From NCBI GenBank assembly GCA_021904315.1, contig CM038910.1, positions 24,066,256-24,130,255 of the forward strand: a stretch of 64,000 bases of DNA, in the 5' to 3' direction. The stretch comes from Sphagnum magellanicum. Its lineage: Eukaryota > Streptophyta > Sphagnopsida > Sphagnales > Sphagnaceae. The notes below the pieces were generated by a model. It had not been told where the DNA came from. It was given only the letters and a program-made list of their open reading frames with translations, and made no database searches. The position numbers were made by a program, and so were the translations under genes. Positions 9,092-60,900 of this stretch are shown here, piece by piece (the first letter of the stretch is position 1; each line of letters opens with the position of its first letter).

Positions 9092-10252
9092 GTTAGGGGC
9101 ATTATAGGTCGGGAGCCAGTTGATTTTTGAATCCTAAAACCCTAATGAGTAGTTATGGCCTTTTTTGGGTGTCAATGATATTTTAGACATTGTGTGGTTT
9201 AATAAACCTGATAGCATGATGGACTCCTGGTTGTTGTAATTGGAACAATGGCCATTAAACCCCATTGGATGGAATTTCAATGTTATCACAAAGGGTAATT
9301 TGTTGGTTAAGTAATTGCAGATTTTTACATGCAAAATTGCAAGTTGCAGATCAATGTGTGTAATATTTATTGGTTGATTTTTCAACACTAAGGGAGTATA
9401 ATAGAAAAGTGATATGTATAATGTACATTAGTTAAAGTAGGTGTAGGTGTGTAAGGAACCCCAATATGGGTAAGGCAATGGTTAATGCTACTAATCTAGT
9501 TGCACATGTAACTATAGTTGCACACCTTAACCTTAAAACTAACAATGACAAAAGTTGCATGCCATGGGCCAGTAGTTGCATTTGTAATTAAATCAAACAG
9601 TTGTTGTGTTGCCATGTGGCACGCTATAAACGGTATTATAAAAACCCTAAATGCTAACACTAACCCTAACCCTAACACCTATAAAGTAGGACCATGTGAC
9701 ACATGGCGATTTAAGCTCTCAAAATACTAGTTGCATTTGCAATTACATTGTGCGGTCACTAGGTTGCCATATGGCATGATCCTGATAATTCAATGGGTGT
9801 TAAACCCTATAACCCTAACCCTAATCTTCCCCACGTGTATAATGACATAGCATGGTTGATCAAGCTTTAAACCCAACACGTGTCCCCACCCCAACGGTTA
9901 CGACTTGGACGATCTAGATTAATTAAAGTAATTCTTAAAACTAAATATTTAATTACAAAATAAAAGTACACGTGTTTGCATACAATTGGGTTAGCTAATT
10001 AACATGTAATGCAATGGGAACGCAACCCCTATAGTTGCATGCAGTTGCACTTACAATTGTTAGTCTAAAATATGGGTGGATGAAACTATATAACCCAACC
10101 GTATGTACTTGTCATATACGGATTATCAGATGCAACTATAATTTTTCTACAATTTGTCTTAGGCAATTGGGCTAATTTTTAGTTACAAGTGTCGATTGCA
10201 ACTGAAAACCAATTATATAAGACAATTACAAAATGGTATTTTTCTAGTAGTG
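9092..10252 (+). mobile_element. CACTA-like 3' subterminal region and right terminus
   Basis: There is no ORF of note. The stretch is rich in GTTGCA, TTGCAAC and AATTG motifs and holds two short interstitial telomere-type arrays (CCCTAA repeats at 9643-9675 and 9802-9823). It ends TTTTTCTAGTAGTG at 10239-10252, whose reverse complement CACTACTAGAAAAA is a textbook CACTA terminus. The partner left terminus was not found in the window. Confidence 0.5.
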
Positions 10253-10328
10253 TATTAGGGCATCAAATTCTCGTGTCCCAGGATTACATGTACATCAGGA
10301 AAACACATAATTTTCCACTTATTAGCTT

Positions 10329-11021
10329 ATGAAGTGCCAACTTCAAATGTGTGAAATGGCGCAAAAACTTGTGAATACACTGTTATTTTGTTTTCAAGAT
10401 TTGAAGCTAAGCACCAGGGACATAATTGCAGTACTAAAGGATACCCTGAACACTACATCATGTTCTTTATTAATCCCTAATCCACATGCTATAGGGGTCC
10501 CATTTAACACCTTGGAGGGACACTCGATTGGCTCACGTGTTACAGATGGCGTTTGTAATTTGGTCACTAGTTCTAACATGGCTAAACTAATGGGCTCTCT
10601 TATTTCTGGTTCTACAATCACATATCAGAAAGGAGCTAAAAACACCTCATTTGTGGATTTGTTACTCAGTAAAGGCGTTGTGGATAACCATTCTTTCCAT
10701 AAAGACTTTCATTCCTTTTTTAAGGTGGTGCCTAGTGAGAGAACTTCCATTGCCATCAGAGTTACCATTGTTGACAATATTGAGTCAACAATCGAGGTGG
10801 GAGGACATACACCCAAAGTGGTACTTCTTGATACAAGTGCCCAACCAGTGATTCTTGGAGTTCAATTTGCTAAAAAGATGGGCATGTTCGACTCCAAACT
10901 ACAAAAATCTATGTGGCAAATTCGCATTGTTAATGGGAGCATGGAAGAGGTACTTGGGGAGAGCTCGGATTTGATTGCACTTAACTTCAATGAAGGTACA
11001 GATCAAGAGCTTTGCTTATAG
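10329..11021 (+). pseudogene. gag/protease segment of the + strand gypsy element
   Basis: This 230-codon open frame ends in a retroviral-type aspartic protease. The flap-proximal stretch KVVLLDTSAQPVILG carries the catalytic D-T/S-A triad (DTSA, Asp at 10830), followed by a hydrophobic helix and a second strand (QIRIVNGS). The first 150 residues are a gag-like or linker region with no zinc knuckle visible. It is the best preserved part of the element. The frame stops at 11021, where a C-terminal extension of the same protein (NATSYDVFIGQEA) continues beyond the TAG. Confidence 0.6.
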
Positions 11022-11469
11022 GTCAGATGTTTAGTCACCAATGCCACCAGTTATGATGTGTTCATTGGGCAAGAGGCCTGTTTTCACCAAGTTTCACAAT
11101 TGACAACTAGTTCGAGCATGTGTACTACTGAGTGGATTGGGAGATTGATGGCCACCACCTAGGATACATACCCTTCGATTTACATGAGAACCATAGTCCT
11201 ATGGCTCACCATTGTATGTTCAAGGAAACACACACTATTTCTTACATCCAACAAACTAGCCACGAGTGGATAGAGGGAGATGAAGAGGAGACAACTTACG
11301 CCCAAGCTATTGAAAGCTTGAGGGTGGTTCCTATTGACATTCAACATAGAATAGAGGTTTTATAGAGGTTCAAAGTAGCCCATAAACCTTTGGTCAAAGC
11401 TCTGTCTAGTTTTGAAAACATGGAGAGCCATGCGAATCAATTAAGCTAGTACTTTGTCAGCTAATCACC

Positions 11470-12445
11470 TGGATACCACTTAAGGAAAGGATTACATTAC
11501 TAGAGCTCTTTGGTGGTATTGGTACAACTCTTAAAGCCCTACTATAGTCAAGGATGGTGGTTCAGAAGTATTTCTACATAGACATTGATCCTATTGCAAA
11601 ACAAGTGGCGGCATCGAGAATGATGGAGTTCATAACCAGATTTTCACAACAGTTTGTAACCACCACATGGAAGGTTAGTTTCATTTTTTTGCCCTCTAAC
11701 ATACAACTAATTCAAAAGAAGCATATGGAATTACTTGGCCTCGTGGACCTCATCATTTCAGGTTAGGAATGTCAAGGATTTTTAACGGCTAGATTTGGAG
11801 AAGGCTAGAGTGACATAAGATCTAGTCTTTTCATAGACATGGTACGATTGATCACCTAGGCTCAATCCATTTTTCCTACGTTTGGTTATGTAATTAAGAA
11901 CACCCCTTCTCAGCTTGATAAGAGGGAGAAATTCTAAGAACACTACACGCGAGTTAAGCATTACTTTAGAAAGCCACTCTTATTCACTATGGCACAATGC
12001 GATTCTTATGCACATCGACTACGCAACTAGTGGACCAACCTTGCACCATTTTCAATTTTATAGTTGGCTCTGAGATACACCATTAGAGACCTGAACCTAC
12101 ATGTTTCTCACATATTAGATGATCAGAGCTCTTGCCAACCAGTTATAAGGCAAAAGAAACCTCCTTGGTTTCATGTGAACACAATAGGAAAACCAACATG
12201 TGTTTGGCCCACCTTTGTCTCCTTCCTAGGAGCACACGCCTTTTAAGAAGATGGACCAAGCTTAATGTATTGTCATGTTTTAGCCACTTGAAATGAACTA
12301 AGCCCAGAAGAAAAAAAAGGGCTATGGGGTTCCAGACTAGCATTACTAGTCACACCAAGGTGACTAGATTGGAGCATAACGCTCTACTAAAGAGAGGCAT
12401 GGACCTAAATTCCCTTACATGGTTGTTGGTAACCTATGTATTCTT
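11470..12445 (+). pseudogene. Cytosine-C5 DNA methyltransferase-like domain inside the gypsy pol
   Basis: One plus-strand frame, broken mainly by TAG stops, shows the m5C methyltransferase motifs in canonical order: motif I LLELFGGIGTTLKALL (about 11498-11545), motif II YFYIDIDPIAKQVAASRM (11569-11622), motif IV DLIISG then ECQGF (11746-11784, retaining the cysteine but with Glu for the usual Pro), motif V-like SSLFIDMVRLI, motif VI as KNT where ENV/ENT is expected, motif VIII-like SYAHRLRN then WTNL (12007-12039), and a motif IX/X-like MGFQTSITSHTKVTRLEHN (12324-12380). The domain lies between protease and RT. In the family it would methylate cytosine in DNA with S-adenosylmethionine; here it cannot, being riddled with stops. 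Assignment is by motif order, not by alignment. Confidence 0.68.
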
Positions 12446-12774
12446 TCAAATGTACACAACACTAACACTAATTCAATTAGCTTGTAGTTCTTGCGATGTG
12501 ACTACATGGCACCCCAACTAAATACACTTGCCTATCTTCAACACTCTACACTTCACTCTTAGTGTTGGGGGGGAGGAGGTACCATGTAATTTGACTTAAG
12601 TTGTTTCTGATACACTTGGAGGTACATAAGTTTCTAGATAAACAATTACAACCTTATACGAATTTACATAGTTGGATAGTGGAAAACCCAATACACTAGG
12701 CTCTTCAAACACACTTTCCAACTCCATTTCATGTGTTTCCAACTACCCTTTCGTTATGGAAAACCAACTCACCA

Positions 12775-14259
12775 AGAAGGAGAGAAACCAAGTCACAAAC
12801 TTACTAATTAAGTATGAAAATGTGTTCCGCATTTTCAATGAAAGACTTATGTAGGTGTAAAACCATGCAATTATCTATAGACCTTATAGATGAGACACCC
12901 ATCTATCTGAGGAGACATAGGTTGAGCAAGCATGAGTGGGAACTAGTAAATGAAAGATGCAAAGAGCTCAATGAGGCTGGTTTCATTCAACCATCAAGTT
13001 TTGATTTCGTAGCCGCTACGATAATGCCAACGAAGAAGGATTCAGCTGGATTATGGACCGAAAAAAGGATGTGCACGGATTATAGGCCTTTGAACTTGGT
13101 TACACCTTAGGACAAGTACCCCATGCCCATCCTTGAAGAATTGTTTGATAACATTGGAAACTCAAACATCTTCATAATTGTGAATATAAAGTAAGGCTTT
13201 AACTAGATTGTGCTCGTTGCAAAAGATTGCAAAAAAATGACATTCCATGGAAGCAACAAGTTGTGGGAATGACTTGTGATGCCTTTTGGATTAAAGAATG
13301 CATTTGTCTTCTTTTAACAAGTCATGGACCAAGTTATTAAAGGGGTAAATTTTTTGAAGTGTTACATAGATGATGTCCCAGTGCATAGCAAAAGACTCTT
13401 GCAACACTTGGTTCATCTTGAGGAATTATTCAAAAGGCTCCACGAAGTCAATATGAAAATCCATCCTAAAAAGTGTGAGTTTGCTATCACCTCAGTAGTC
13501 TACCTTGGACCCAAAATTTTGCCAAATGGTATTATGGCTTATTGGGCCAAAGTAGTAGCCATTTTGGAAATGCCCAATCCTACTGATGTTCACACTTTGA
13601 GGAGTTTCATTGCACTATGTAATTACTACAAGATTTATGTCCAAGACTTCAGTCCTATTATTCATCCTCTCTATGCATTGTTAAAGAAGGATGTTGCTTG
13701 GACATGGAGTGAAAAAGCTTAGGAAACTTTCAACAAACTCAAGGAAAAGCTTTCAGAGTTCCCCATTCTGAGAAGACCTGATTTCAGCAAGGTCTTCATT
13801 CTACACACTAATTGGGGTGCTCTTGGTATTGGTGTTGTTCTTGGCCAACTTGATGAGGAAGGTAAGGAATATGTTATCGCCTATGCATCCCGAAGCAACA
13901 ACAAGGCTAAGAGCAATTACTCTTCATACGAAGGGGAATGTCTTATTATTGTATGGGTCGTCATACATTTTAGGCCCTATTTTTATGGCACCAAGTTCAC
14001 TTTGTATACCGACCACTAGTCTATCAAGTGGTTGATGACCAATGATAAGCTTACTAGTAAGTTAATTCGTTGGGCACTTATACTTCAAGAGTATGAATTC
14101 AAGGTTATTCACCAACCTGGTATTACACATCAAAACGTGGATATCATGTCACAGAGACCTTTCACTACCACTGAAGATTTCTCAAAAGCCAGGCAAGACT
14201 TCGACCAGATTCCAACAGTACATGTATCTTATGCATCTAGTTATCTTGCACTATTGTAA
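12775..14259 (+). pseudogene. Reverse transcriptase-RNase H of the + strand gypsy element
   Basis: The RT runs from a KERNQV lead-in through LRRHRLSKHEWELV, then MCTDYRPLN, MPFGLKNA and CYIDDVPVHSK (YxDD box, 13361-13393), then the thumb (HPKKCEFA, VYLGPKILPNG) and the connection (LRSFIALCNYYKIYVQDFS). RNase H follows with ILHTNWGALGIG and YASRSNN, then FTLYTDH. Several essential positions are gone: the RT motif A Asp is Asn (IIVNIK, about 13178) and the first RNase H Asp is Asn (HTNW). Stops at TAA and TAG sites break the frame at least six times. Length and order fit Ty3/gypsy. Confidence 0.85.
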
Positions 14260-14326
14260 TGTAACTTGATTGAGCATCCCATTGTGGATATATGGGAAGA
14301 CTTGGACACTTTGAGGTTTTTTTAGC

Positions 14327-14890
14327 ATGGGGAATACCCTCCCCAAGTTACATCAAATCATCGAGATTGTATACAACAATGGTCCAAACACTACTCATGG
14401 AAAAATAATCACCTTGTTCGATGCTTACCACAAGGCAATAGAGTGGTTCCTCCACCACATGAACAACATGGTCTTATTCCAAGACCTACTTGATCATGTT
14501 TTCATTGACCATTGCTCGACTTCAAGGGATCATCCCCAAGCTTATGGCCTTGTAAAAAGGATGGTTCAAACATGCAGGAAAGGACTTCGAAAGATTTGCC
14601 TCACTGGGAACAAAGAGGATTGGGACCGGGCCCAACCTTACATTGCCATGGGTTATAGGATGTCCAAACACGCTTCTTTGTCTCATTTCACTCCTTACTT
14701 TCTACTTTTTGGGAGACATCCCATTCCACCTTTTTCCATTGTTGCTCAAATAGACCAAGTTGTGGACTTGGACTCCCTAGCCACTTGGGCTTGGGTCATC
14801 GCAGAGAAGGTTGTTTTATTCAGAAGGGTTATGCCCAGGCCATGGAGAACTTGTCCATTGCACATCATCGAGACACCTTACAATATGTAG
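14327..14890 (+). pseudogene. Integrase remnant of the + strand gypsy element, internally deleted
   Basis: The frame joins a pre-integrase stretch (to about 14480) directly to the end of the integrase core, so the HHCC zinc finger and the first two catalytic Asp positions are deleted. What remains has DHPQAYGLVKRMVQTC, where the third catalytic residue (Glu of the DDE triad) would be and Lys now stands, then the conserved C-terminal stretch ALPYIAMGYR-like (QPYIAMGYRMSKHAS) and LLFGRHPIPP. A frameshift after 14890 leads into the PHD-bearing tail. Confidence 0.7.
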
Positions 14891-15090
14891 ACACACCAGG
14901 TGGTAGTTATAAACCTAAAGTGAGATAATTTGATGTTGGTGATTTTGTGAATTTACAACGGTAACCTAATGATACTTTAGACACTTCTTTCGGTTGCATT
15001 ATCTTGAAGATCAAGGCGATCATGCCTTCAGGTGTGTTGGAGTTGTAAAGAACTAACGGACGCATAAATTAGGATCACTCCAAAAATTGT

Positions 15091-15315
15091 GTGCCCTACC
15101 ACCTACCAAACTTGGATCCTACTATCATCACGTCGACTTGGATTCCTCCACTTGACTATCCATGTCGGGTATGTCAAAGGACAGACGATGTTGATCAGAT
15201 GTTGCTTTGCGATAATTATAATGGTGGATACCATCTATTTTGCCTCAAGTTGGAGCGCATTCAAGTTTTTGTTGGCATTTGGTATCGTTCATCATGTTCT
15301 TTTATAGCACCTTGA
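15091..15315 (+). pseudogene. PHD-finger-like C-terminal tail of the gypsy polyprotein
   Basis: The 74-codon frame shows the PHD signature: CRVC, then QMLLCDNYNGGYHLFCLK, then GIWYRSSC (15163-15297). In intact PHD fingers the second metal site reads CDxC and the end WxCxxC. Here one Cys is Tyr (CDNY) and another is lost (WYRSSC), consistent with G-to-A decay. PHD fingers read histone H3 tails, so in an active ancestor this could have targeted integration, as chromodomains do in other gypsy elements. It lies in the position a chromodomain would take, between integrase and polypurine tract. Confidence 0.7.
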
Positions 15316-15365
15316 TTTCTACTCAAACCATGCCACGTTTTTATTGACTCAAGTCTAGGGGGGGA

Positions 15366-16050
15366 TACACGAAAATTTCATCTTAGCCTCCTGTTGTGCA
15401 TTATATATATGTGTGTGTGCATCTTTTTTTGGTTGATTAATGTCTACCTTTATTTGGGTTTAGTCTTTTTGTTTAGTAAGGTTTATTATGGATTTACACA
15501 CTTACGACACCGAACGTCACGATAGCTGTCATGCCCATATGCATGGCCTCATACATGATGGCTGGTTACAGGCATGCCAATCATGCCTTTAGGGTTATGT
15601 ACGCTCTTAATGTTAATGTACGTTCTTAGGTTACTATACGTTATTAGATGTTTTAGGGTTATGGCTTGTTTAGGGTTTTAGCTTTATTGACAGTTGTATA
15701 AAAGGCCAAGCTCTTCCCTTCCTTTGTTAATTTTTCTAGAATTCCTTTGTTAAGGAAAGTTTCCTCCATAGTCAAACTGGATTTCTAGATGTTCACGGCG
15801 GCTATTACACAGCCACCGTTTACATACACTACTTTTTTTTCCTTCTTTTCAATTTAATACATGAAAATTTCATCTTGTGCATTATATATATATATATATA
15901 TATATATCTGTGTGTGTGTGTGCACGCATCTCTTTTTGGTTGATTAGTTTCTACTTTTGATTCGTTTTAATCTTTTTGTTCAGTAGAGTTTACTATGGAT
16001 TTACACCCTTATGACACCAAATGTCACGACACTACACGTCACGACAACTC
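15366..16050 (+). repeat. 3' LTR sequence followed by a partial second copy
   Basis: Sequence from ATACACGAAAATTTCATCTT (about 15364-15540) recurs at about 15852-16045, including the AT and GT microsatellites and the GGTTGATTA, GTTTACTATGGATTTACAC and GACACC motifs. The first copy holds a TATAAAAGG box (15697-15705), as expected in U3. The arrangement is an LTR of about 490 bp followed by the beginning of another in tandem, cut where the minus-strand gypsy element starts (16059). Confidence 0.5.
15696..15706 (+). promoter_or_regulatory. TATA box in the gypsy LTR
   Basis: TATAAAAGG is followed by a CT-rich stretch (CTCTTCCCTTCC), placing a likely transcription start near 15725-15735. The call rests on motif and LTR position only. 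Confidence 0.45.
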
Positions 16051-16932: not shown

Positions 16933-17480
16933 TGTCATGGGCATGAAAAACTACAAAAATAAAAACTTAGCCAAAGATACAACAAGGAAAACAAATCACA
17001 AGAAATGCAAACCTAAGTCTAATCCAAGACTGAAAACACAAAAACATAAGGCAAAAACATGATATATGTTAGAAGATGATTCAAACAATATTTTGTTTTG
17101 ATGACATATGAAAACAAAGGTTAAAACAAGTAAATGTACCCCAAACTAATGTTGAATAGATTGAAAGTAATGGGAGGTCCTACTCTTATTTATACCCCAT
17201 TGGGGATTTAGCTCAAGGAAACTTCCAAAGAGGCTTCCATGTGTGCATTGACCAAGGAAGCTTCTTGAAAAACTTCCTAACTAATAGTCAACTAAGAATT
17301 AATTAATAATTAACAATGATGTAGGCGACTACGTTGGTGTAAACGATGACATAAGCAATTATGTTGATGTAAGCGATGATGCAAATGACTATGTTAGTGT
17401 AAGTAATGATGCAAGTGATGATGCAGGTGACTATGTTGGTGCAAGCGATGATGCAACAATGAATGATGGTGTTTGTGACA
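16933..17480 (-). mobile_element. Solo LTR inserted in the integrase, perfect 5-bp target duplication
   Basis: The 548-bp insert begins TGTCA and ends TGACA on either strand and is flanked by AATGG at 16928-16932 and 17481-17485. Removing it and one AATGG restores the integrase frame exactly (FDSI joined to LVVV). It is homologous along its length to the 5' LTR at 22433-22996, including the TTTATACCCCATTGGGGA promoter region (TATAAA on the minus strand) and a minisatellite near its 5' end. It inserted after the host element and then lost its internal region by LTR recombination. Confidence 0.88.
17310..17470. repeat. Minisatellite inside the solo LTR
   Basis: Units of roughly 30-36 bp built on GATGATGCAAATGACTATGTTGGTGTAAGC are repeated about five times. 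The same minisatellite, with a different number and order of units, lies at 22806-22980 in the related 5' LTR. Confidence 0.6.
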
Positions 17481-17485
17481 AATGG

Positions 17486-17939
17486 AATCAAATGAATTAA
17501 ATCATGGAAGATCCATGATGAAATCCATGGAGATTGAAGACCATAGTGAAATAAGGACCGATAATGGCTAAAAAAGTCCAGGAAGGCGATGACAAAGATT
17601 CTTTGCATAAGCACAAACATCACATGATCCCACAAAATTTTTCATGAACTTTCAAAGTTGTAGTCATTAATAGTTAGGAAACACTAACTCCATGGTTTTG
17701 TTGAATCTAAAATGACTAGTAACCAATGTGTCATCTCTGGCTTGGAGAACTTGAAGTTGCGCAAAACCTTTCGGTACGTATAACAATTCGTCATGATATA
17801 ACAGACCATCATGAAACTCAAATTTGTCAAAGTCATTAGGAGGGTTCTTCCAACGACTTCTGACAATAATGGCAAGATAATCATTGACTAGATTTTCATA
17901 AATGTGTTTAAGGAAGGTCTTATCCTCAAGAATTACCAA
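17486..17939 (-). pseudogene. Integrase zinc-binding region of the antisense gypsy element
   Basis: The minus-strand frame carries FEFHDGLLYHDELLYVPKG, LQVLQARDDTLVTSHF and FNKTMELVF (the histidine half of the HHCC zinc finger), then after a frame change SCDVC (cysteine half) and SPWISSWIFHDLIHLIPF, the strand that normally holds the first catalytic Asp. It stops at the solo LTR junction (17480) and continues at 16927. Confidence 0.75.
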
Positions 17940-18349
17940 TAATGCATGAAGCTGAAGGATTCTAGGTTTGAAAGTGGTGTCACATTGTTGATTGTAAGCA
18001 GAATCCCCCTTTTTAAGTGCGAGGTACGAGCGACAAGATAATGCATTTGGTTTCCCTTGTTATCGCCTTGAATAATAAGTAATCATGAACCAAAATCAAG
18101 ACAAGGATAATGCCCATCGAGCTTGATGTCAATTCAACACAAGTCATTATGAAATATTGGAGATTCCTATTATTAGAATACACAATGATTTCACGTTGAG
18201 CTCCTTCAAGTAGATGACGTCATTCCTCAAAGGCATCCACGATGACCAAGAATTTTCTGTCATAAATTTTGTAGTTAATCTTGATAAAAGAAATTTTATA
18301 AGACTAGAAACCAATTAGATGAAAAAGATTATCTTCTTTAGGTTGTGAA

Positions 18350-19800
18350 AATACGACACTTAATGCAAAGTCAAAAACATTCGTATCCAAGACAAAAGAT
18401 TTTGAAGGGTTTGCATGAATCAAAAGTGGGGCAATTGTGAAAGAAGCCTCCAAATATTGAAAGGCATTTTTAGCTTCAACTCCCTAGGAAAGAGTTTAAT
18501 CCTTCTTAATCAAACAAGTAAAAGGGGTCATTATCGTGGAATAATGTGCAATGAATTGCCAATAAAAATTAGTGAACCCAAGAAAACATTGAACAAGTTG
18601 TGAATGTATGACATTTAATGCAAAGTCAAAGGCATCCGTCTACAAAACAAAAGGTTTAGAAGGGTCTGTATGAGGGTGAAAACATGCTAAGGTGTTGCAA
18701 TTTTGGATGTACTTGCAATACTAAAAGTCCCATGCGCCAATGTGATTTTACTTTCAAAGATGTTAAATGATTAAGATGTTAAAACATGTCCTTGTTGAAT
18801 TTAACCTCATTTAGTACCGTGTTGACTTGGATTTCCAATGAAATTTACATTTGTTTACCTAAATGAATGCATAATTTGGAGCTCCAAACCAAATTTATTC
18901 TAAAAATTACAAATTATTAAGTTATCCATTATACTTATGCATCCTTTTTCAATGAATCTAGGTACAGTTTTTTGTACATGACACTTTTGGATCATGATTT
19001 AAGGCATGTCAAAATTTGGGTTAATTTAGTGTAAGTGTCAAGACACATGAATTTTTTTAAACAATTAATTTATTATGCTTGTGAATTAAAAATGTCATTT
19101 CAACCAATGGATTTGAAGTTTTTAAGAATCCAATATGATCCCTTCAAGCATAGTTATAAGAACATTTCATCTTCAAACTTCTAATTGAAAATACTGATTT
19201 TTTATGTACTCCTTTCAAAGGACATTTTTTTTAATAATTGATTTTTGCTGGATTATCCCAAATTAATATGATGTTTCGTAAGCATGTTTTTTAGGTTTTT
19301 TCATACATTAAGATGTCTTGGTAAGTGAAAAATATTAACTTTTTAAAAACATTAAATTTTTATAGTACTAACTCCATGTGATGTGGTAAGCTATATTTCA
19401 GGACATTCATTGAAAAAAAAAAAATACAATCAAAGTACAATGTGATTATATCCGAATTCAAAATACTTTTAAAAATAGGAAGGTATGTGTATAACCATTA
19501 TGATTTTATCATTTAATTTGCATTATATTTTTATATCATTGTGGCATTGAGTACTTTGTTAATGATAGTATGGAAACTACCATTTGGGATAGTAGTTTGC
19601 TTCCCCCAATCATGCTTTCACCTATGAGTCAAAAGTGGGGCTATCATGAAGGAGACCTTCAAAGATTGAACAACATTTTCAACTTCAACTCCCTAGGAAA
19701 AAAGTTGATCCTTTTGAGTTAAACGAGTAAAAGGGGTCATTATCACGGAATAATGTGTAATGAATCATTGATAGAAATTGGCGAACCTAAGAAAACATTG
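18350..19800 (-). repeat. Tandem duplication in the RT-RNase H region
   Basis: A segment of about 250 bp at 18352-18600 (starting CGACACTTAATGCAAAGTC, ending TTGAACAAG) recurs as 18607-18674 plus 19623-19800. The second copy is split by the 948-bp element at 18675-19622. The duplication covers the end of the RT and the start of RNase H of the antisense gypsy element, and predates that insertion. Confidence 0.65.
18675..19622. mobile_element. 948-bp non-autonomous DNA element with inverted termini and 6-bp target duplication
   Basis: It starts GGTGAAAACATG and ends CATGCTTTCACC, giving 12-bp inverted termini with one mismatch. TATGAG occurs on both sides (18669-18674 and 19623-19628), and removing the element with one copy restores the sequence seen in the sister duplicate near 18414-18428. 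The interior is AT-rich with no ORF of note. A 6-bp duplication does not fit the commonest plant superfamilies (hAT 8, Mutator 9, CACTA 3, PIF 3, mariner TA), so the family is open. Confidence 0.75.
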
Positions 19801-20290
19801 AACATCCCAAACATAAGCTTGGGTAGCCCAATCCACAATGGTTTGAACCTTATGAAGGTCCATGCGAACTCCATTTCCAAAAAGAATATAACCCAAGAAT
19901 TCCACTTTAGATTGATAGAATCCACACTTTTCCAATTTGGCATAAAGACCAACTTCTTGGAGCTTTTCCAAAATAAGACGTACATGGTGTTCATGGTTTA
20001 CCGTGTTCTTCAAAAAATGAGGATGTTGTTGATGTAATTGGTCACAAAATCATCCAAATACTCACATAAAACATCATTCATCATATGTTGAAAAACAACA
20101 AGTGCATTAATAAAGCCAAAGGGCATCATAACATATTCAAAATGGTCATTATGAATTTTGAATGTTGTTTTCCATTCATCAACTTCTTGAATGCACACCA
20201 AGTTGTATGCTCTACATAGATCAATTTTAGTGTACATTTTGGCATGACTGAGTTGGTCCAACAATCTTGAAATCAAAGGCAAAAGGTATT
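19740..20290 (-). pseudogene. Reverse transcriptase of the antisense gypsy element
   Basis: The minus strand encodes PLISRLLDQLSHAKMYTKID, LCRAYNLVCIQEVDEWKTTF, FEYVMMPFGFINALVVFQ, then YINNILIF (the YxDD box with Asn for an Asp), then HVRLILEKLQEVGLYAKLEK, FLGYILFGNGVRMD and FLRFANFYQ. Order and spacing are those of Ty3/gypsy RT. The broken YxDD box and frame breaks between blocks show it is inactive. Confidence 0.85.
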
Positions 20291-20699
20291 AGTTCTTGAT
20301 GGTGATTTGATTTAGTCCATGGTAATTAACACACATGCATAGAGATCCATCTTTTTTCTTAATAGGATTGGAACACCGATTAGAGACTTGGAATGTCAAA
20401 TGAACCCCTTCTCAAGATTTTCATTGATGTATTATCGAAGCGTCGAAAGCTCGTCTTGCAACAAGTTATAGATGGGTCCAAACAAGGGTTGTGTTCTTTC
20501 CTCCAAATTAATTGCACAATCATATGGCCGATGTTCAAGTAATGTGTTTGCATTTTTCTTTTCAAAAACATCTTTGTAATCTTGGTATTGAATAAAGATT
20601 TCATGTTGTTATGTACAAGGATCAGGGGCTGGAATGGCATACACAAAGAATGCAGTTCCCTTCTTTGATGCTTGTATGAATGTTCTTACTTCCATGAAC

Positions 20700-21012
20700 A
20701 AAGGCTTTAAATGTTTGGATCTTTAATTACCTTCAATATATCCTTCACATTTGAGTTTTTACATGCGTTGACTAGTTGTTGATGTGTCTTCATGTGAGAA
20801 TCATGTTTAGAATCCAACGTGCTTGTTGGAAAAGCTTTGTATTTTGGTCGAGTTTTGTTTACTAATTCAAAATGAAGAGTCCTTGTCTTCCAATTCACTT
20901 TAAGATTATGCAAAATGAACCATGATAACCCAATGATGATAAGGTTTGTTGGAAATGAAATGACATTGAAAACAACTTTACTACTGCATAACTTATTTAT
21001 TATTGTTAACAC
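20700..21012 (-). pseudogene. Protease-RT linker of the antisense gypsy element
   Basis: A 101-codon minus-strand frame with a strand-rich start (KVVFNVISFPTNLIIIGLSW) resembling the end of a gypsy aspartic protease, followed by a basic linker. The catalytic triplet of the protease is not clear here. The frame lies in the right place, between gag and RT. Confidence 0.4.
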
Positions 21013-21389
21013 CTTGGTCTCATGCGTTACAGGTCATGAAAAAAGGTTCTGGCCATCGATCACTTCAATTACCATTGGTGTTGTTTTCTTGACCAACGCC
21101 AAATTATGTTGTTGTACCAACTTTTTATTGAAAAAACATGTAGATGCCTTGAGTCAAAAAATGTTTGGGTTCACAAAATCATGGATTTATTACCCTTGAT
21201 CATGATGGGCAACAAAAAAACAAGGTGTTGGTTCTAAAGACAAGGTACGACCATTTTGAATGCATGATGCATTGAGGTCTAGTTTCACAGTCCTTACTGA
21301 GATTGGACATCCTTGTTTCCCTTCTCTTCTGGCCTTTGGGTAATGAAAGAAGTTGTGGCACGTGTTACATGTTGAACACATTTCTTTAA

Positions 21390-22260
21390 ATAAACACCAA
21401 CTATGTGGCCTGGTTCTCCATAGTACAAACAAAGATTGTTTACATGTTGACATTATTTTTCATGTTCTGTGAGTGGTTTGAATTGTGTTTTATCGATTTG
21501 CATGGGGTCATCATTGGGTGCAGACACCATATGTTTGGGTTGCAACATGGGTGGCATGAATTGCTTTAATGTTGGTGACGGTTCCCAACACTTTTCCTAT
21601 CGACGTTCAAAAAATCGATTATCATAATGCACAATTTGCATGATTACTTAACTCAAGGTCGTGGGATCATGCATGGTCAACATAAAGTCCTTCACATCTC
21701 CACGAAGTTCAAACTGAAATTGGTTCACGAACATGGCCTCATCCCATGAAATGTCACATGCTAAATACCTGAATTCAAAAACATGCATAGATGTTGGGTG
21801 CGATCCTTGGGGAAGAGTTGGCAACTTGCTTGGTGTTGTACATTTTTTATCTAAATCACCAAAAGAAACATAAATTTTTTCAAGAAATGCTTTAAAGACA
21901 TTTAGAAGAGGAAATTAACATTCCAAAATAAATGTAAACCATGCTAAAATCGTGCCTAATAATAAAGTGCGAATGAATTCAACTTGGGTTTGGTCATTTG
22001 GATAACAATGTTAATGAAATTGGATGATGAGACATATTTGGTTAACAAAACTTCAAAATTTGAACATGTGTTGTCAAACTTTTCTAGCAAGTTAATTTGT
22101 GGCTCCTTCGGAATATTTCCAAATGTTGCCAATGTTTGGTTTACTTGTAAGTGTGCAATGGACTCATGAAGAGACTGATTTTCCTATTACATATGTTTGA
22201 AGGAAACAAGAACTTCTTCCATGGATGAAATTATTTCTTCTCTTGAAATGGACATGGCTA
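21390..22260 (-). pseudogene. gag remnant with decayed CCHC zinc knuckle
   Basis: On the minus strand NNLCLYYGEPGHIVGVY (about 21440-21390) is a CCHC zinc knuckle in which the second and the last cysteines are Tyr (TAT for TGT). Upstream sequence to about 22260 has the AT-rich, helix-forming composition of a gag capsid region but with many breaks. The cysteine-to-tyrosine changes are G-to-A transitions on the coding strand. Confidence 0.55.
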
Positions 22261-22432
22261 AAAATATATGTAAATCAAAACTGACTAGAGGTGGATAATC
22301 CACAACCTTTTGACAATTTTTACATTTGAAGTAGAAGGGTAGTCCACATTCGACTTCCACAAAAAAAGAAGAAGCAAAACAACTATAATGACAACAAGAG
22401 TAGACATAGGCCTGATGTTAGTATGTGCAAAC

Positions 22433-22996
22433 TGTCACAAACACAAAAAATTATAAAAACGGGAATTAATCCAAGGACACGACAAGGAAAAAAAATCACA
22501 AGAAATGCAAACATAAGTTTAATCCAAGATTGGAAACACAAAGACGTAAGGCAAAAACATGATATATGTTAAAAGATAATTCAAACATAAAATTATTCTA
22601 ATAACATATGAAAACAAAGGTTATGATAAGAAAACGTACCCAAAATTAATGTTGAACAAACTAAAGGTAATGGGAAATTCTACCCCTATTTATACCCCAT
22701 TGGGGACCTAGTTCAAGGAAACTTCCATAGAGACTTGAATGTGTGCACCAACCAAGGAAGTTTTTTGAAAAACTTCTTAACTAATAGTGAATTGAAAGTT
22801 AATTGAAAGTTAATGATGATGCAAATGATGATGTAGGCAACTGTGTTGGTGCAAACGATGATGTAAATAATGATGCAAATGACTATGTTGCTGCAAACAA
22901 TGATGCAAGTGACTATGTTGGTATAAATAATGATGCAAATGACTATGTTGGTACAAACAATGATGCAAGCGACGAATGATGGTGGTGTTCGTGATA
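22433..22996 (-). repeat. 5' LTR of the antisense gypsy element
   Basis: This 564-bp copy is homologous to the solo LTR at 16933-17480. It starts TGTCA on the plus strand and ends GTGATA (from TGACA). On the minus strand a TATAAATA box precedes the CT- and T-rich region. Just inside it (minus strand) ACTAACATCAGGCC may be a decayed initiator-Met tRNA primer binding site, 10-15 nt from the LTR end; this is a weak match. Confidence 0.7.
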
Positions 22997-46174: not shown

Positions 46175-46439
46175 CTATATTAAGGGGAAACAAAAGAAGT
46201 GAGTGATGTTCTTTATGTCCTTAGTATATATATATATATATTGGGCTTTATAACAAATAAAAGAAATATAATAATATTTGACTTTTAGAAGTGTTTCATT
46301 TTATATTTAAACAATCATAGGACAATGATAGGTAGAGGGGTCCAAAGCAATGTCAACGAACTTTACAAATTTAAAGCATTTGAACTTCATGCACGTGATA
46401 TCAATAATATTATAACTAGAAGTTTATTAAGTTTGTTAA

Positions 46440-47026
46440 GTTTGTTGAACTTTGGCATAAGAGGCTAGGACATTTAAATGATCAAAGTACCCATTTGCTA
46501 ACTTTAAGAAATTTAGTGCATGAACTCCTATTGCTTCCTTCAATTAGTAATATTTGTCAAAGGTGTTTATTTAAAAAGCAACAATATGAGAAGGTCACAA
46601 ATAAAGGTGTAAGTAGAACAACAAATCCATTCCAATTACTCTGTAATGGCCTTTGTGGTCCATTGAATTGTCCTTCTCTCTTTGGAGATATGTATTTCCT
46701 AACATTTGTAAATGATCACAATAAAAAAACTTGGGTGTTTTTTTTCAAGAAAAAGAGTGGAGCACTTGACAAGTTCAAGTACTTCAAAATATTTGTGGAA
46801 AGGAAGCCAATGGTAGAATCAAATGTTTAAAAGGACAAATCACAACATGGAGTTCACTTCAATAAAATTCAATTACTTTTGTGAGAAGCATGATATTAAG
46901 AAACAATTCGCACAATCAAACACACCTTATCCAAACAAAGTTACGAAATGTAAAAATTGTTCACTTGTGGAGAGGGTAAAAAAACATGGTGTGAGGAAAC
47001 AAGCTTCCTTCATACTTGTGGGTTGA
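46440..47026 (+). pseudogene. copia integrase remnant
   Basis: A WHKRLGHLN-type zinc-binding start (about 46450) is followed by ICQRCLFKKQQ, then LCNGLCGPL where HxDLCGP is expected (first catalytic Asp lost), YFLTFVNDHNKKTWVFFFKKK, and after a shift EFTSIKFNYFCEKHDIKKQF with the second Asp lost. It is inactive. Confidence 0.75.
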
Positions 47027-47609
47027 AGTAGTAAATTGTGTTGTTATTTATTTAATCACCATCCTATAAAGGCCAACCTAGAAACAACATTTGAAGAATG
47101 TTCTATTGGTAAAAACATCCAACTCAAGCAATCTAAAAGTTTTTAGGTGTATTGTTCATGTACATGTACCAAAGGAAAATCACAAGAAATTTTATGCAAA
47201 GTTTATAAGGCATGTCTTTTTAGGATTTCAACAATAAAGCTTATAGATGTTATTATCACACATGATGTGAAATTTGATGAATTGACACCTAGTTTTCAAA
47301 AACCAATAATTGAGAATGTGCATAATGAAAATTCAAAAGCAATGGTATAATTTAGGTCTATTGTAGACATAGGTTGACTAAAAGGAGATGGAGGGCTTGA
47401 GGAACCATCTCTTGAGATGATTAATGTTCCACATAATGTTGAATTGGAAGATCACTATGATGGATGTTCATCACCATAGACACAAAATTGAAAGGTGAAC
47501 ATGTTAGGATTAGGAGAAGCAAGTTTCATTAGGCTAATTAAAACATAATTAACCTCTTGAACCTTTTTTCAAAGGAAGATCCATTTGGACGAAGAGCACC
47601 CAACTAGGA

Positions 47610-48411
47610 TTGAAGGACAATGTCATTGCAATTGTCATTAGTAGAGCATATAACAACATCAGAAGCTTTGTTTCACCTCAACTAGAAACATGCAATGTAA
47701 CACCAGATGGATTCCATTTCCAAAATAAAACTTGGACATTGAAAGAACTAACCCTAAGAAAACAACCTATCACATCAAATTGGTTTACAAAAATAAAGTT
47801 AATATTCAAGGTGAAGTTGAGAAACTCGAAGCTCGAACTGTTGTGAGGGGTTTTGAGTAAACTCATAGCTTAAATTATTTTAAAACTTTTGCACCAGTAA
47901 TAAGGTGAGAGATAATTAGGCTAGTGGTAACATTGACAAAGAAGGTGGAACATTAAACACTTTGATATTAAAACAACTTTCTTAAATGGAGATTTATGTA
48001 AGGAGCTTTTCATGTAACAACCTGAAGGTTTTGTATCACCTTGAAGAGAACATATCTTTTGTAAGTTCAAGAAGGCACTTTATGAACTTAAATAGGCATC
48101 AACAATTTGGTACTAGAAAAAATGACCAATTTATCAAAGATTTTGATTTTAATCATAGTGAGTTCGATCACAACTTGTATTTTAGAATAGGTTTTGATAG
48201 AAACATGGTGATCATCCTATTATATGTAGATAATTTTTTGATTGTTGTTGATTATAAGGGTGAGATAGAAAGGATTAGACATAAACTAATGAAAGCATTT
48301 GAAATGACCAATCTAAGAAGAATCAAATTACATAGGGATAGAATGGGTGGATTTTTTGAGTTCAACATGCTTGATTGCAAGTTAGCAAGGTGCAAATGCA
48401 TCAACATCTAA
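47610..48411 (+). pseudogene. copia reverse transcriptase remnant
   Basis: Fragments of the RT_copia domain lie in several frames: FNHSEFDHNLYFRI, then ILLYVDNFLIVVDYKGEIER (the YVDD box with the second Asp as Asn, about 48216-48260), and LMKAFEMTNL. Upstream NVIAIVISRAY and NWFTKIKLIFKVK are degraded finger segments. Confidence 0.7.
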
Positions 48412-53300: not shown

Positions 53301-53935
53301 TTTACCTACCTATTAGTTTCATTGAAAGATTTTCATAGTTCTTATTGGAATGGTATTCAATACCTTTCTACATATTTGTTTTGGGTCAAGCTGGGTACCT
53401 ACCTTGCCAACAACGACGAGTATCAAATGAATTATGTCACCCAAAAATGTTGATAATTGTGAAACTGTAGTAAGTTGGCAGTTTTGACACTAATCATATC
53501 ATACAATGTGACCAAAATTGGGGGGAAAGAAGCCTCCCAATCATCCTTTTTTGCTTCCAAAACCAAAAAATAGACACTTATAAGACATGTACACATTGAA
53601 TTCTCCATCAAAACTTGAAACTAGGTAGCTCAATAGGAGAAGGCAATCAATCCAACTACTTGCAATCAATCAACCCCCTTGAGCCAACCTTTTGGAAAAA
53701 AAATTAATTGTTTAAAAACAATCATCACCTTCTTCATCATCATCATCATGGTGACAACCAACCCTACCTACTATGAATCAATAGCAACACAACAAGCTCT
53801 TTACCACCCTTGTGTTGCTTGGGAAGCCCACTCTAGATAGATCCAGCTGCATGAAATGGGCCCCCCCCTAGGACTACAACATTATTTTCACAAACACACT
53901 TGTACATAGTATATAATAATGTACTACTACTACTA
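50354..53935. other. AT-rich intergenic sequence, no gene recognised
   Basis: Short ORFs such as 52249-52485 antisense and 52743-52928 have no motif. A small perfect hairpin AATGCTGA-AAC-TCAGCATT lies at 52920-52938. Confidence 0.4.
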
Positions 53936-53949
53936 CACCACAAATTGTC

Positions 53950-54512
53950 ACAAACGCAATAACCTAACCTACAATCCCAATAAACTAACCCACAAACCCA
54001 ACTATGATTGTAACATAACCTACAATCCCACAAAACCTAACCCACAAGCCCAACTATGATTTTAAACTAACCTACAATCCCACTAAACCTAACTCACAAA
54101 CCCAACTATGATTGTAACCTAACCTACAATCCCACTAAACCTAACCCACAAACCCAACTATGATTTGTAACCTAACCTACACTCCCACTAAACCTAACTC
54201 ACAAACCAACTATGATTGTAAACTAACCTACAATCACACTCAACCCAACTCACAAACCCAATTATGATTGTAACCTAACCTACAATCCCACTAAACCTAA
54301 CTCACAAACCCAACTATGATTGTAACTTAACCTACAATCCCACTAAACCTAACCCACAAACCCAACTATGATTGCAACTAACCTACAATCCCACTAAACC
54401 TAACCCACAAACCCAATTATGATTGTAACCTAATCTACAATCCCACTAAACCTAACCCACAAACCCAATTATGATTGTAACCTAACCCACAAATCCAACT
54501 ATGATTGTAACC
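53950..54512. repeat. 52-bp minisatellite, about 11 units
   Basis: The unit reads roughly AACCTACAATCCCACTAAAC followed by CTAACCCACAAACCCAACTATGATTGTAACCT and repeats about 11 times, the last unit being shortened. Units differ by scattered substitutions and 1-3-nt indels. The length is not a multiple of three, so it is not coding. Confidence 0.85.
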
Positions 54513-55110
54513 GAACCCCCCTCTATCATTGCTGCAAAATTATTCTGTTGGAACCTTTTTGCCAGCTTGCTCCTCATCCAACACCCTCCTCTCTCACCGG
54601 GGCCCCCTTTTCTTCAACCCTGAACCCCCTCCTGACTCCTCACCCAACAGCAATATGGTCCTTTTTTTTGGTAGTAGAAAGCAAGCAATAATGCACCCCC
54701 CACACACCCCATGACTACTGGGTTCATGTCATTGATTTATGGCAGTAGATATTTGGAAGGACCCAAAGCATCCAAGATTTTCTATTTCATTTTCTAAGTA
54801 TCCTTTGCCCAAAAAAAAAACAAAACTAGGCTAGCTCCTTCCCCAAATGGCAGAAAAACACAAGAAAGAAAAAAACAAAGTGGCCCAAGGGAAAAAATAA
54901 AAAAATAAAAAAAAAAAATAATAAAAAAAAAATAACAATAAATCTTTAGAGAGAAAAGATTCTCACTTTCTTGGTCTTCTTCTTTTAAACTTAAACTTCC
55001 TTAAGTTATCACATTCCTTCTTCCATTAGTAAAAGATGCCATAATCAAACCCACCTTACCCACCCCCCCAACACATGACCTTTTTTTACTTGCTCGTCCT
55101 CAGGTAGAGG

Positions 55111-57986: not shown

Positions 57987-60900
57987 ATGGTGGACAATCA
58001 CGAAAGACAGCCGCCAACACCTAGGACACCCCTATCTTCTGTTGGGGGTCCACGTCTGAGGTATTCCCAATCCCCGGCCTAGTCCCAAGTTCTTTGACAT
58101 CTGCATGCTTGTGACAGCAGCAGCAGAACGTGTGACTGAAAGATATGATTCCTGCATGAGACTGCTGATACGAGACACATGTCCATTTTATTGCAGGGAT
58201 TGGTCTGGACCAGTTGGTATTGAGGATCCAGATGGGGTGTGTGCCCGAGTGGCACAATACATTGAACAGTTGCGCTCAGCAACTACGCCAGCTGCTGAGC
58301 GGGAACTTGTCTTACGGCAGCTTTATGAATTGGCAGATGGACGAAAGGATGCCAGAATTGCAGTGGGTTCACACTCGCAATCAATACCATTGTTAGTAGC
58401 ACTACTCAGGTCAGGAACATTGGCTGCAAAGGTAAATGCTGCAGCGATCCTTGGAGTGTTGTGCAAGGAGGCTGATCTTCGTGTCAAAGTGCTCCTAGGT
58501 GGTTGCATACCTCCACTACTAGCCCTGCTCAAGTCAGCTTCTCCAGATGCCCAAGTTGTGGCAGCTAAAGCCCTGAATGCAGTTTCCCAGGGAGGTGCCA
58601 GGGACCATGTTGGCTCAAAGATCTTCTCCACTGAGGGTGTTGTACCCCATCTGTGGGAGCAGCTGCAGCCAAAGTATAAGCTGCAGAAGGCCGTGGGTGG
58701 TCTACTGACAGGGGCACTTCGCAACCTCTGCACAAGCACTGAAGGCTTCTGGCCTGTCACCCTGGAGGCTGGTGCTGTGGGTATCTTAGTGGGGCTGTTA
58801 GTGAATGGGAGTCCTGAAGCACAAGCAAATGCAGCATCTCTGCTGGCAAGTTTGATGAAATCAGTAGACCATACCAGTGAACTCATACTGAGTGCAAGAG
58901 CGATGGGCCCACTTCTGCAACTTTTGACACATAAAGATGTTTCTGTGCGTGCAGAAGCTGCAGGAGCACTATGTGCCCTCACATCTGACCTTGAGGATGC
59001 TCGGGAATCCATGAGAGCTGCAGGGGCAACAGTGAAGTTGATCAGTGCAACTGTTGCACCATCCAAGGAGTTCATGCAAGGGGAGCATGCCCAGGCCTTG
59101 CAAGAGAATTCCATGCGTGCACTGGCAAACATTTCGGGTGGCATGCCTGCTGTTGTGGTTAGCCTTGCAGGAAGTCTCAATTCAAAGCGATCTGAATCAG
59201 AAATTGCAGATACGACTGGAGCATTGGCTTATGCGCTGATGGTTTTAGATGTGACAGATGAGTCTGTGGAGTCTATTGACCCAGTCAAGATTGAGAAGGT
59301 TCTGGTGAAGCAGCTTGAACCTCACACATCACAATTGATTGAGGAGCGTTCTGTGGAAGCCCTGGCAAGCTTGTATGGCAATGCTTGTGTAGCCAAAGGT
59401 CTGGAGCATGCAGAAGGGAAAAGAATGTTAGTTGGGCTGGTTACTATGGCAAACATTGAGCCCCAAGAGGAACTGATGGGATCACTGAGGGATTTGTGTA
59501 GTGGCAAGTCAGATTTGTGGAAGGCACTGCGAGGGCGAGAGGGAGTCCAACTCTTGATCTCGTTACTGGGTCTTTCCTCTGAGCAACAGCAAGAATATGT
59601 GGCTGCATTGCTGTCAATTTTGTCCCAAGAAGTAGATGAAAGCAAGTGGGCTATTACAGCAGCAGGGGGAATTCCTCCACTAGTTCAGCTTCTTGAAACT
59701 GGATCTGCCAAAGCAAAAGAGGATTCGGCAATCATCCTTGGAAATCTTTGCAGCCATAGTGAGGATATCCGTGAATGTGTTGAGACAGCTGAGGCTGTAC
59801 CTGCTCTTCTCTGGCTGCTGAAGAATGCTGGTTCAAAGGGTCAGGAAATCGCAGCAAGAGCACTTACCCAGCTGGTACGTGAGTCAGATGCAAGCACAAT
59901 CAGCCAGTTGACTGCACTTCTAACTGGTGACTTGCCAGAGTCAAAGGTCCATGTGCTGCATGTTGTGGGCTGTCTGCTCACAGTTGCCTCACAGGAGGAT
60001 ACATTCCGGGAGGGCTCAGCTGCCCATGAAGCACTTGAAACTGTGGTGCAGCTCCTCAAGTCAAAGAATGCTGAGAGTCAGGAGCATGCTGCTTCAGTCC
60101 TTGCAGGAATCTTTGCTTCAAGACAGGATCTGTGCGAAAGCCCAGCTATTGTTGATGGGATTTTCCCTTTAATAGAACTGCTGAGTGTAGGGAATGAGCA
60201 AATTGCCATGCAGGCAGCACGGGCACTAGCAGCACTCTTTTGCTGCATTGAGAAAAACCGAAAAATTGCAGAGGCAGGTAAGCATGCAATCTTGCCTCTC
60301 ATCAGTTTAGCCAAGTCATCAAGCATAGCAGTGGCTGAATTCGCAATGACAGCTTTGGCAAACCTTCTTCTGGATTCGGAGGTGGCAGAAGAGGCACCTG
60401 CAGAGGAAATTATACTTCCACTCACCAGGGTGTTGCGGGAGGGAACTCTCCTGGGTAAGGAACATGCAGCTGGGGCTCTTGTCCGGCTACTCCATTCCCG
60501 ACCTGTCGATGATGTGGTTGCTGAAAATGTTCATCAGTGTGGAACTGTCCTGGCGTTGGTGTCTCTGCTTGCTAATACTGATTTGGAACATAGCACCAAC
60601 TCAGAATCCCTGGAGGCACTTGCATCACTGGCACGGGCTAAACAAGGTGGAACACTTAGCCGGCCTCCGTGGGCAGTCCTGGCAGAAGTCCCATTCAGCA
60701 TGGGACCATTGGTGAATTGTCTTGCAGTAGGTGTGCCATTCTTGCAGGAGAAGGCAATAGAGGTCCTCTCAAGGTTATGTCGAGACCAGCCAGTGGTTCT
60801 GGGTGATCTGATTGCTAGCACTTCAAAGTGCATTGCAGCACTTGCAGATCGAATTGTCCACTCTCCTAGCCTGGAAGTGAAAGTTGGAGGCACTGCATTA

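Follow-up and report, generated by a model that had tools for sequence, protein, structure and literature searches.

We analysed a stretch of 64,000 nucleotides from the moss Sphagnum magellanicum (assembly GCA_021904315.1, contig CM038910.1, positions 24,066,256 to 24,130,255), referred to here as the window. It contains a decayed Ty3/gypsy retrotransposon at 10251-16046 on the + strand, the strand of all element features given below, which carries a cytosine-C5 methyltransferase (MT) domain between its protease and its reverse transcriptase (RT). Protein relatives match this element by tblastn in a single order, with frames that shift 3, 2, 1, 3, 1, 2, 1.

The surviving copy starts with a linker and an aspartic protease (10251..11084, frame 3; tblastn of P0007 and P0004), followed by a protease-MT linker (11075..11443, frame 2; tblastn of P0004, P0007, P0008 and P0010). 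Motifs I to VIII of a Dnmt3-type MT lie at 11482..12330 (frame 1), recognized from the motifs themselves, Pfam, relatives and an intact copy, and motifs IX and X at 12303..12449 (frame 3), from motifs, tblastn and the intact copy. A first-pass annotation, made from the letters of the sequence, had placed the MT motifs in order in one broken frame. The order stands, but the single frame does not: motifs I, II, IV, VI and VIII share the first of these frames, and the MGF motif lies with the IX/X end in the other. Between 11491 and 12290, stops number 9 in the main MT frame and 20 and 14 in the remaining frames. An MT-RT linker (12450..12827, frame 3; tblastn of P0003 and P0005) leads to the RT (12829..13722, frame 1; RVT_1 3.2e-19) and RNase H (13702..14217, frame 1; PF17917 5.9e-34 and tblastn). 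The annotated collinearity with a gypsy pol therefore holds behind the MT, and ahead of it with a protease match below the cut-off (PF13975, E 0.008); the host being Sphagnum, this is a land-plant element, as had been proposed.

Further downstream, the later part of the integrase core (14477..14770, frame 2; tblastn of P0009 and P0012) is followed by the integrase tail and a PHD finger (14746..15276, frame 1; PHD at about 15163-15261; PF00628 3.8e-6 and P0009). The integrase remnant at 14315-14890 has no Pfam match and is identified by tblastn with relatives, which found neither the zinc-binding part nor the start of the core in this copy. The 3' end comprises a polypurine tract (15351..15364, seen in the sequence and at the same location in relatives) and three direct repeats, Y1 (15365..15526), X2 (15527..15857) and Y2 (15858..16046), the last of which ends the element. 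By blastn with the repeats of the copy L020, these are 80% (over 15365-15522), 74% (over 15524-15856) and 84% identical (over 15915-16046), the limits of X2 and the start of Y2 being taken from the sequence. Upstream of 10251, tblastn with relatives found no gag, and the copy is 5'-truncated. With its stops, its frameshifts, no gag found and half of the integrase missing, the window copy is dead.

Copies in the host genome

The identification of the segment as a C5 methyltransferase was borne out by its relatives. With stops masked as X, the window MT itself matches PF00145 at E 1.8e-4 and 21.5 bits, just short of the curated cut-off of 22, and a single-sequence PDB search with it returned DNMT3A at E 0.13 only. 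Thirteen relatives in the protein database match it with E values of 0.01 or below. P0001, the best of them, is 73% identical across 100% of the segment, and P0003 is 74% identical across 90%; both have PF00145, and P0003 is a single 820-aa protein matching MT, RT and RNase H. The MT domain of the intact copy L019, from the same genome, is 74% identical to the window MT over its residues 2-284 and reaches 37.3 bits. L019 joins protease, MT and RT in a single 2379-aa frame, which encodes two CCHC zinc knuckles, protease (2.8e-7), MT (2.7e-9), RT (1.9e-28), RNase H (5.4e-39), an integrase zinc finger (1.7e-12), the core rve (3.1e-12) and a PHD finger (5.9e-12), and thus has the Ty3/gypsy order of protease, RT, RNase H and integrase.

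A profile search of the host genome (438,994,042 bases, 31 contigs) placed PF00145 at no fewer than 124 places, including at least three DRM loci, with 11 matches in open frames of at least 1000 aa. The MT of a second Sphagnum family found at least 116 places; neither count is a copy total, as part of the candidates was scored. We fetched 15 copies from the 124 places, picked for long open frames. All 15 carry the MT, and most of each copy is collinear with L019; the MT domain is stop-free in nine. Taken by itself, the sub-threshold score of the window copy would suit a similarity by chance, or insertion of a host methyltransferase gene into this one copy. The database relatives, from other species as well, together with these 15 collinear MT-bearing copies, rule out such an explanation, whose probability we regard as negligible. 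One locus considered as a host DNMT3, C6, reads as a DRM.

The MT domain of the family is under purifying selection. Among stop-free copies, pooled ratios of nonsynonymous to synonymous substitution rates (dN/dS) are 0.22 for MT, 0.30 for RT, 0.30 for RNase H, 0.22 for integrase, 0.32 for protease, 0.33 for gag and 0.08 for the PHD finger, values computed from non-independent pairs of copies that include post-insertion decay and were chosen for long open frames. Counting each distinct MT variant once, the 15 copies hold 75 synonymous and 75 nonsynonymous changes (p 1.7e-12 against neutrality). The PHD region of L009-L023 has a dS of 0.26, three- to fourfold the MT or RT value, with very low dN, which perhaps reflects exchange between older lineages.

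The window copy is older, with a dS of about 0.3 to the stop-free copies. Where at least 90% of the copies share a base, it differs 115 times, 77 times by C to T or G to A. Eight of its nine MT stops occupy positions that are Gln or Trp in most copies. Such a pattern would be expected of methylated, silenced DNA.

Fold and active site of the methyltransferase

The closest solved sequence and the predicted fold support a Dnmt3-type C5 cytosine methyltransferase, whose catalysis is predicted. We modelled the MT segment of P0001 with AlphaFold from 54 sequences, having set aside a poor earlier model from eight (pLDDT 51.2). The model matches DNMT3A at E 5.1e-20 and TM 0.74, and in a viral structure library with phage and giant-virus methyltransferases the best match has E 4.1e-17 and TM 0.64. 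The first-pass annotation had named as refuting outcomes a lack of significant C5 methyltransferase profile matches, or intact family members with a different fold or a later insertion at this place. The profile score and the single protease-MT-RT frame of L019, and a predicted fold closest to DNMT3A/B, speak against both. The motifs run in order from I to X, unlike in DRM enzymes, where later motifs precede I-IV (L002, L005 and L050 in the same genome). The plant host enzymes PpDNMT3a/b share the Dnmt3-type catalytic domain and the unrearranged order. They differ by a C-terminal DUF3444 (as given in the available part of PMC6453930), which was absent from the Pfam matches of L019 (E up to 0.1 in five tiling pieces, where a border-cut domain could escape).

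Of the 53 tree rows whose motif IV was readable by text pattern, 24 have glutamate in place of the proline before the catalytic cysteine, a proline that is to our knowledge near-universal in C5 methyltransferases; the second Sphagnum family (L001, L003 and L004) has the standard Pro-Cys. This substitution might mean that catalysis was lost and the domain retained as a structural or binding module. We consider that very improbable, since all 15 copies conserve the catalytic Cys, the motif VI Glu-Asn and the motif VIII His-Arg-Leu-Arg (HRLRN), and relatives of about 30% identity still have the Cys and the Glu. The unusual Glu-Cys could also suit an enzyme that modifies RNA, either the genomic RNA or a primer, and RNA methylation was raised by de Mendoza et al. 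for a LINE-borne enzyme (PMC5890265, in its available part). Profile comparison favours DNMT3 (2.6e-16) over DNMT2/tRNA enzymes (0.05 to 0.12), and priming looks self-primed, without a tRNA (see below), so that an RNA substrate appears improbable.

Element ends

Instead of the same complete long terminal repeat (LTR) at both ends, as expected of Ty3/gypsy, eight of the 15 copies have split direct repeats in the order X1, coding region, Y1-X2-Y2 (X 309-324 and Y 172-185 bases), of which the window copy retains Y1-X2-Y2. The order could not be made out in the other seven (L009, L011, L013, L014, L019, L021 and L022); on the 5' side of L014 (flank L029), an X repeat is direct and a Y repeat inverted. 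Within each of the eight copies, identity is 96.8-99.7% between the X repeats and 95.3-100% between the Y repeats, which suggests recent insertion for several of them. Each of the eight begins with TGTC and ends with ACA, with a 4-bp duplication on its flanks. In the second family, both copies with flanks read have these termini and the duplication, and two of three copies examined have split repeats, with none detected in the third (C18). The split arrangement is that of PAT/Ngaro-type elements. DIRS/PAT elements use a tyrosine recombinase and make no target duplication, whereas the family here has a DDE integrase and 4-bp duplications, and the Pfam matches of L019 include no tyrosine recombinase.

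A polypurine tract lies immediately 5' of Y1 in the eight copies. Directly 3' of X1, all eight have a stretch with 9-13 nt of complementarity to a site inside X1, a level that no more than 3 of 200 shuffled controls reach for any copy; one second-family copy has 12 complementary nt of different sequence, a count made without shuffled controls. This looks like the self-priming arrangement of Tf1, which dispenses with a tRNA. Tf1/sushi-type gypsy elements, which self-prime from a site complementary to their own upstream sequence, differ from the present family in its PHD finger and split repeats, and no chromodomain is among the L019 Pfam matches. The Y1/X2 junction reads GACA-GC-TGTC, exactly in six of the eight copies and in both second-family copies, and with one base off in the other two and in the window copy. 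The GC is missing at the outer ends of the element.

Relatives and phylogeny

Among the matches listed, named relatives come from the mosses Sphagnum magellanicum, S. compactum, S. troendelagicum and S. jensenii, the liverworts Calypogeia fissa and Marchantia polymorpha (several proteins labelled hypothetical), and the algae Closterium sp. NIES-53 and NIES-54, with one labelled Chrzof1, which we take to be Chromochloris zofingiensis. In 182 rows, the MT stands alone in 123 and beside a further domain in 59. Two arrangements recur: the MT lies after the protease or before the RT, or else after RNase H or directly before the integrase; in five rows of the latter kind a PHD finger lies behind.

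We built a tree from 57 of 108 candidate MT rows (near-duplicates removed) and three outgroup rows, human DNMT3A and two partial DRM rows, on long branches. The place of the MT is known for 29 of the 57 rows, 16 with the first arrangement and 13 with the second, and a single change between them suffices (support 100/98 in the careful tree, 93.6 in the quick tree). The tree would fit an MT that stayed with its elements and moved within pol once, and equally two captures from close relatives. The database entry of one MT relative, P0037, names it a DNA cytosine methyltransferase from a Candidatus Obscuribacterales metagenome-assembled genome; by its tree neighbours, it probably comes from a eukaryotic element and was binned wrongly. 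Scans with short patterns gave 28 matches in viral contigs and five in prokaryote genomes, none confirmed, and so speak weakly against a viral or bacterial source of the captured domain; P0180, a bacterial methyltransferase, matches faintly (E 2.1e-4).

Other features of the window

Scattered telomere-like CCCTAA runs lie upstream of the element at 9640-9830. A second, reversed gypsy copy (16933-22732) has repeats at 16933-17232 and 22433-22732 that are 81% alike, with weak RT matches on the - strand between them. Frames at 46420-48411 look, by their motifs, like fragments of a copia-type element. A tandem repeat at 53908-54528 has 51-52 base spacing and nine overlapping copies listed, and a 1088-aa open frame with armadillo-like repeats at 58060-61326 looks similar to CELLULOSE SYNTHASE INTERACTIVE.

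Discussion

In our reading, to which we give a probability of roughly 65%, the window element is a dead member of a bryophyte Ty3/gypsy family that encodes a Dnmt3-type MT in its polyprotein, between protease and RT, and this MT would methylate the element's own new DNA. The MT, released by the protease or attached to the RT, would act inside the virus-like particle on the freshly made double-stranded DNA, so that a new copy would reach the genome already bearing the host's methylation mark. Pre-marking could hide the copy from host surveillance that targets unmethylated foreign DNA, or make it less harmful to the host. Behind the integrase, the PHD finger would probably read a histone tail and steer integration, by analogy with chromodomains, which steer integration in chromoviruses.

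Several points weigh against this proposal. Other gypsy elements do without an MT; the proline preceding the catalytic Cys is replaced by Glu (WECQ) in 15 of 15 copies; and these 15, picked for long open frames, are the best-preserved ones. The Dnmt3 of a Klebsormidium gypsy element gave no methylation in yeast, a result that its authors call inconclusive (PMC5890265, available part). Alternatively, the PHD finger may guide the MT, which would then act mainly on host chromatin, near the insertion or in trans, rather than on cDNA. The PHD finger lies behind the integrase in the intact copy and in the five relatives with the MT directly before the integrase, and animal DNMT3 is guided by histone marks (according to the part of PMC6453930 available). 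In the window family, much of pol lies between the MT and the PHD finger, and proteolysis, if it occurs, would separate the two, which leaves action on chromatin unlikely.

The structure of the ends suggests that a circle with two LTRs is the integrating form, opened at the palindrome of the Y1/X2 junction. The primer site and polypurine tract would set the LTR order as Y-X. The DDE integrase would cut the palindrome GACAGCTGTC within one LTR of the circle. The cut would produce CA-OH ends with 2-nt overhangs, and the GC of these overhangs would be lost as at retroviral ends; the proposal would thereby account for an inserted X...Y-X-Y unit with 4-bp duplications. A joint reading, in which an old green gypsy lineage integrates from a circle and its lineage-borne Dnmt3, often with Glu-Cys, methylates that circle before integration, is in our view somewhat less likely than not.

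Retrotransposons with captured methyltransferases were already reported from an alga and dinoflagellates, as the first-pass annotation had stated (de Mendoza et al. 2018, PMC5890265, on which the following comparisons draw in its available part). KnitGypsy-Dnmt3 of Klebsormidium nitens likewise combines gypsy domains with a Dnmt3-type MT inside the Pol frame, the MT being under purifying selection and the repeats DIRS-like, per a figure legend. Compared by description only, it differs in that the hosts here are land plants; the PHD finger, target duplications, self-priming and Glu-Cys seen here go unmentioned for it in that part of the paper. Klebsormidium is not named for any of the matches listed (13; the best 120 of 791; 73). 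SymbioDIRS-Dnmt3, which methylates CG in yeast, and SymbioLINE-Dnmt of Symbiodinium also are retrotransposons with a cytosine methyltransferase, but they are DIRS and LINE elements and, per the authors, unrelated captures (PMC5890265). DNMT3s inside retrotransposons in streptophytes are noted, after the 2018 paper, in the accessible text of PMC12344493. The available parts of PMC6317226, PMC9033089, PMC11244446 and PMC6453930 name no bryophyte retrotransposon DNMT3, and among the literature matches listed we found, by title or abstract, no report of MT-bearing elements in mosses or liverworts, nor of gypsy elements with PHD fingers or split repeats. Going by the titles and abstracts searched, we regard MT-bearing retrotransposons as an already known kind and the bryophyte family as a new variation.

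Methylation is one of the main plant weapons against transposons, yet these transposon families retain their own Dnmt3-type methyltransferase under selection. A kind of element reported from one alga and dinoflagellates is now placed, among the matches listed, in four Sphagnum species and two liverworts. As a textbook rule, DDE integrases of this kind use linear DNA ends, and an element with such an integrase and split repeats would, if the circle proposal is true, challenge the rule of linear-end integration. One of the two liverworts is the model Marchantia polymorpha, for which methylomes and genetics exist, and its presence makes the question of why a transposon would methylate DNA directly testable.
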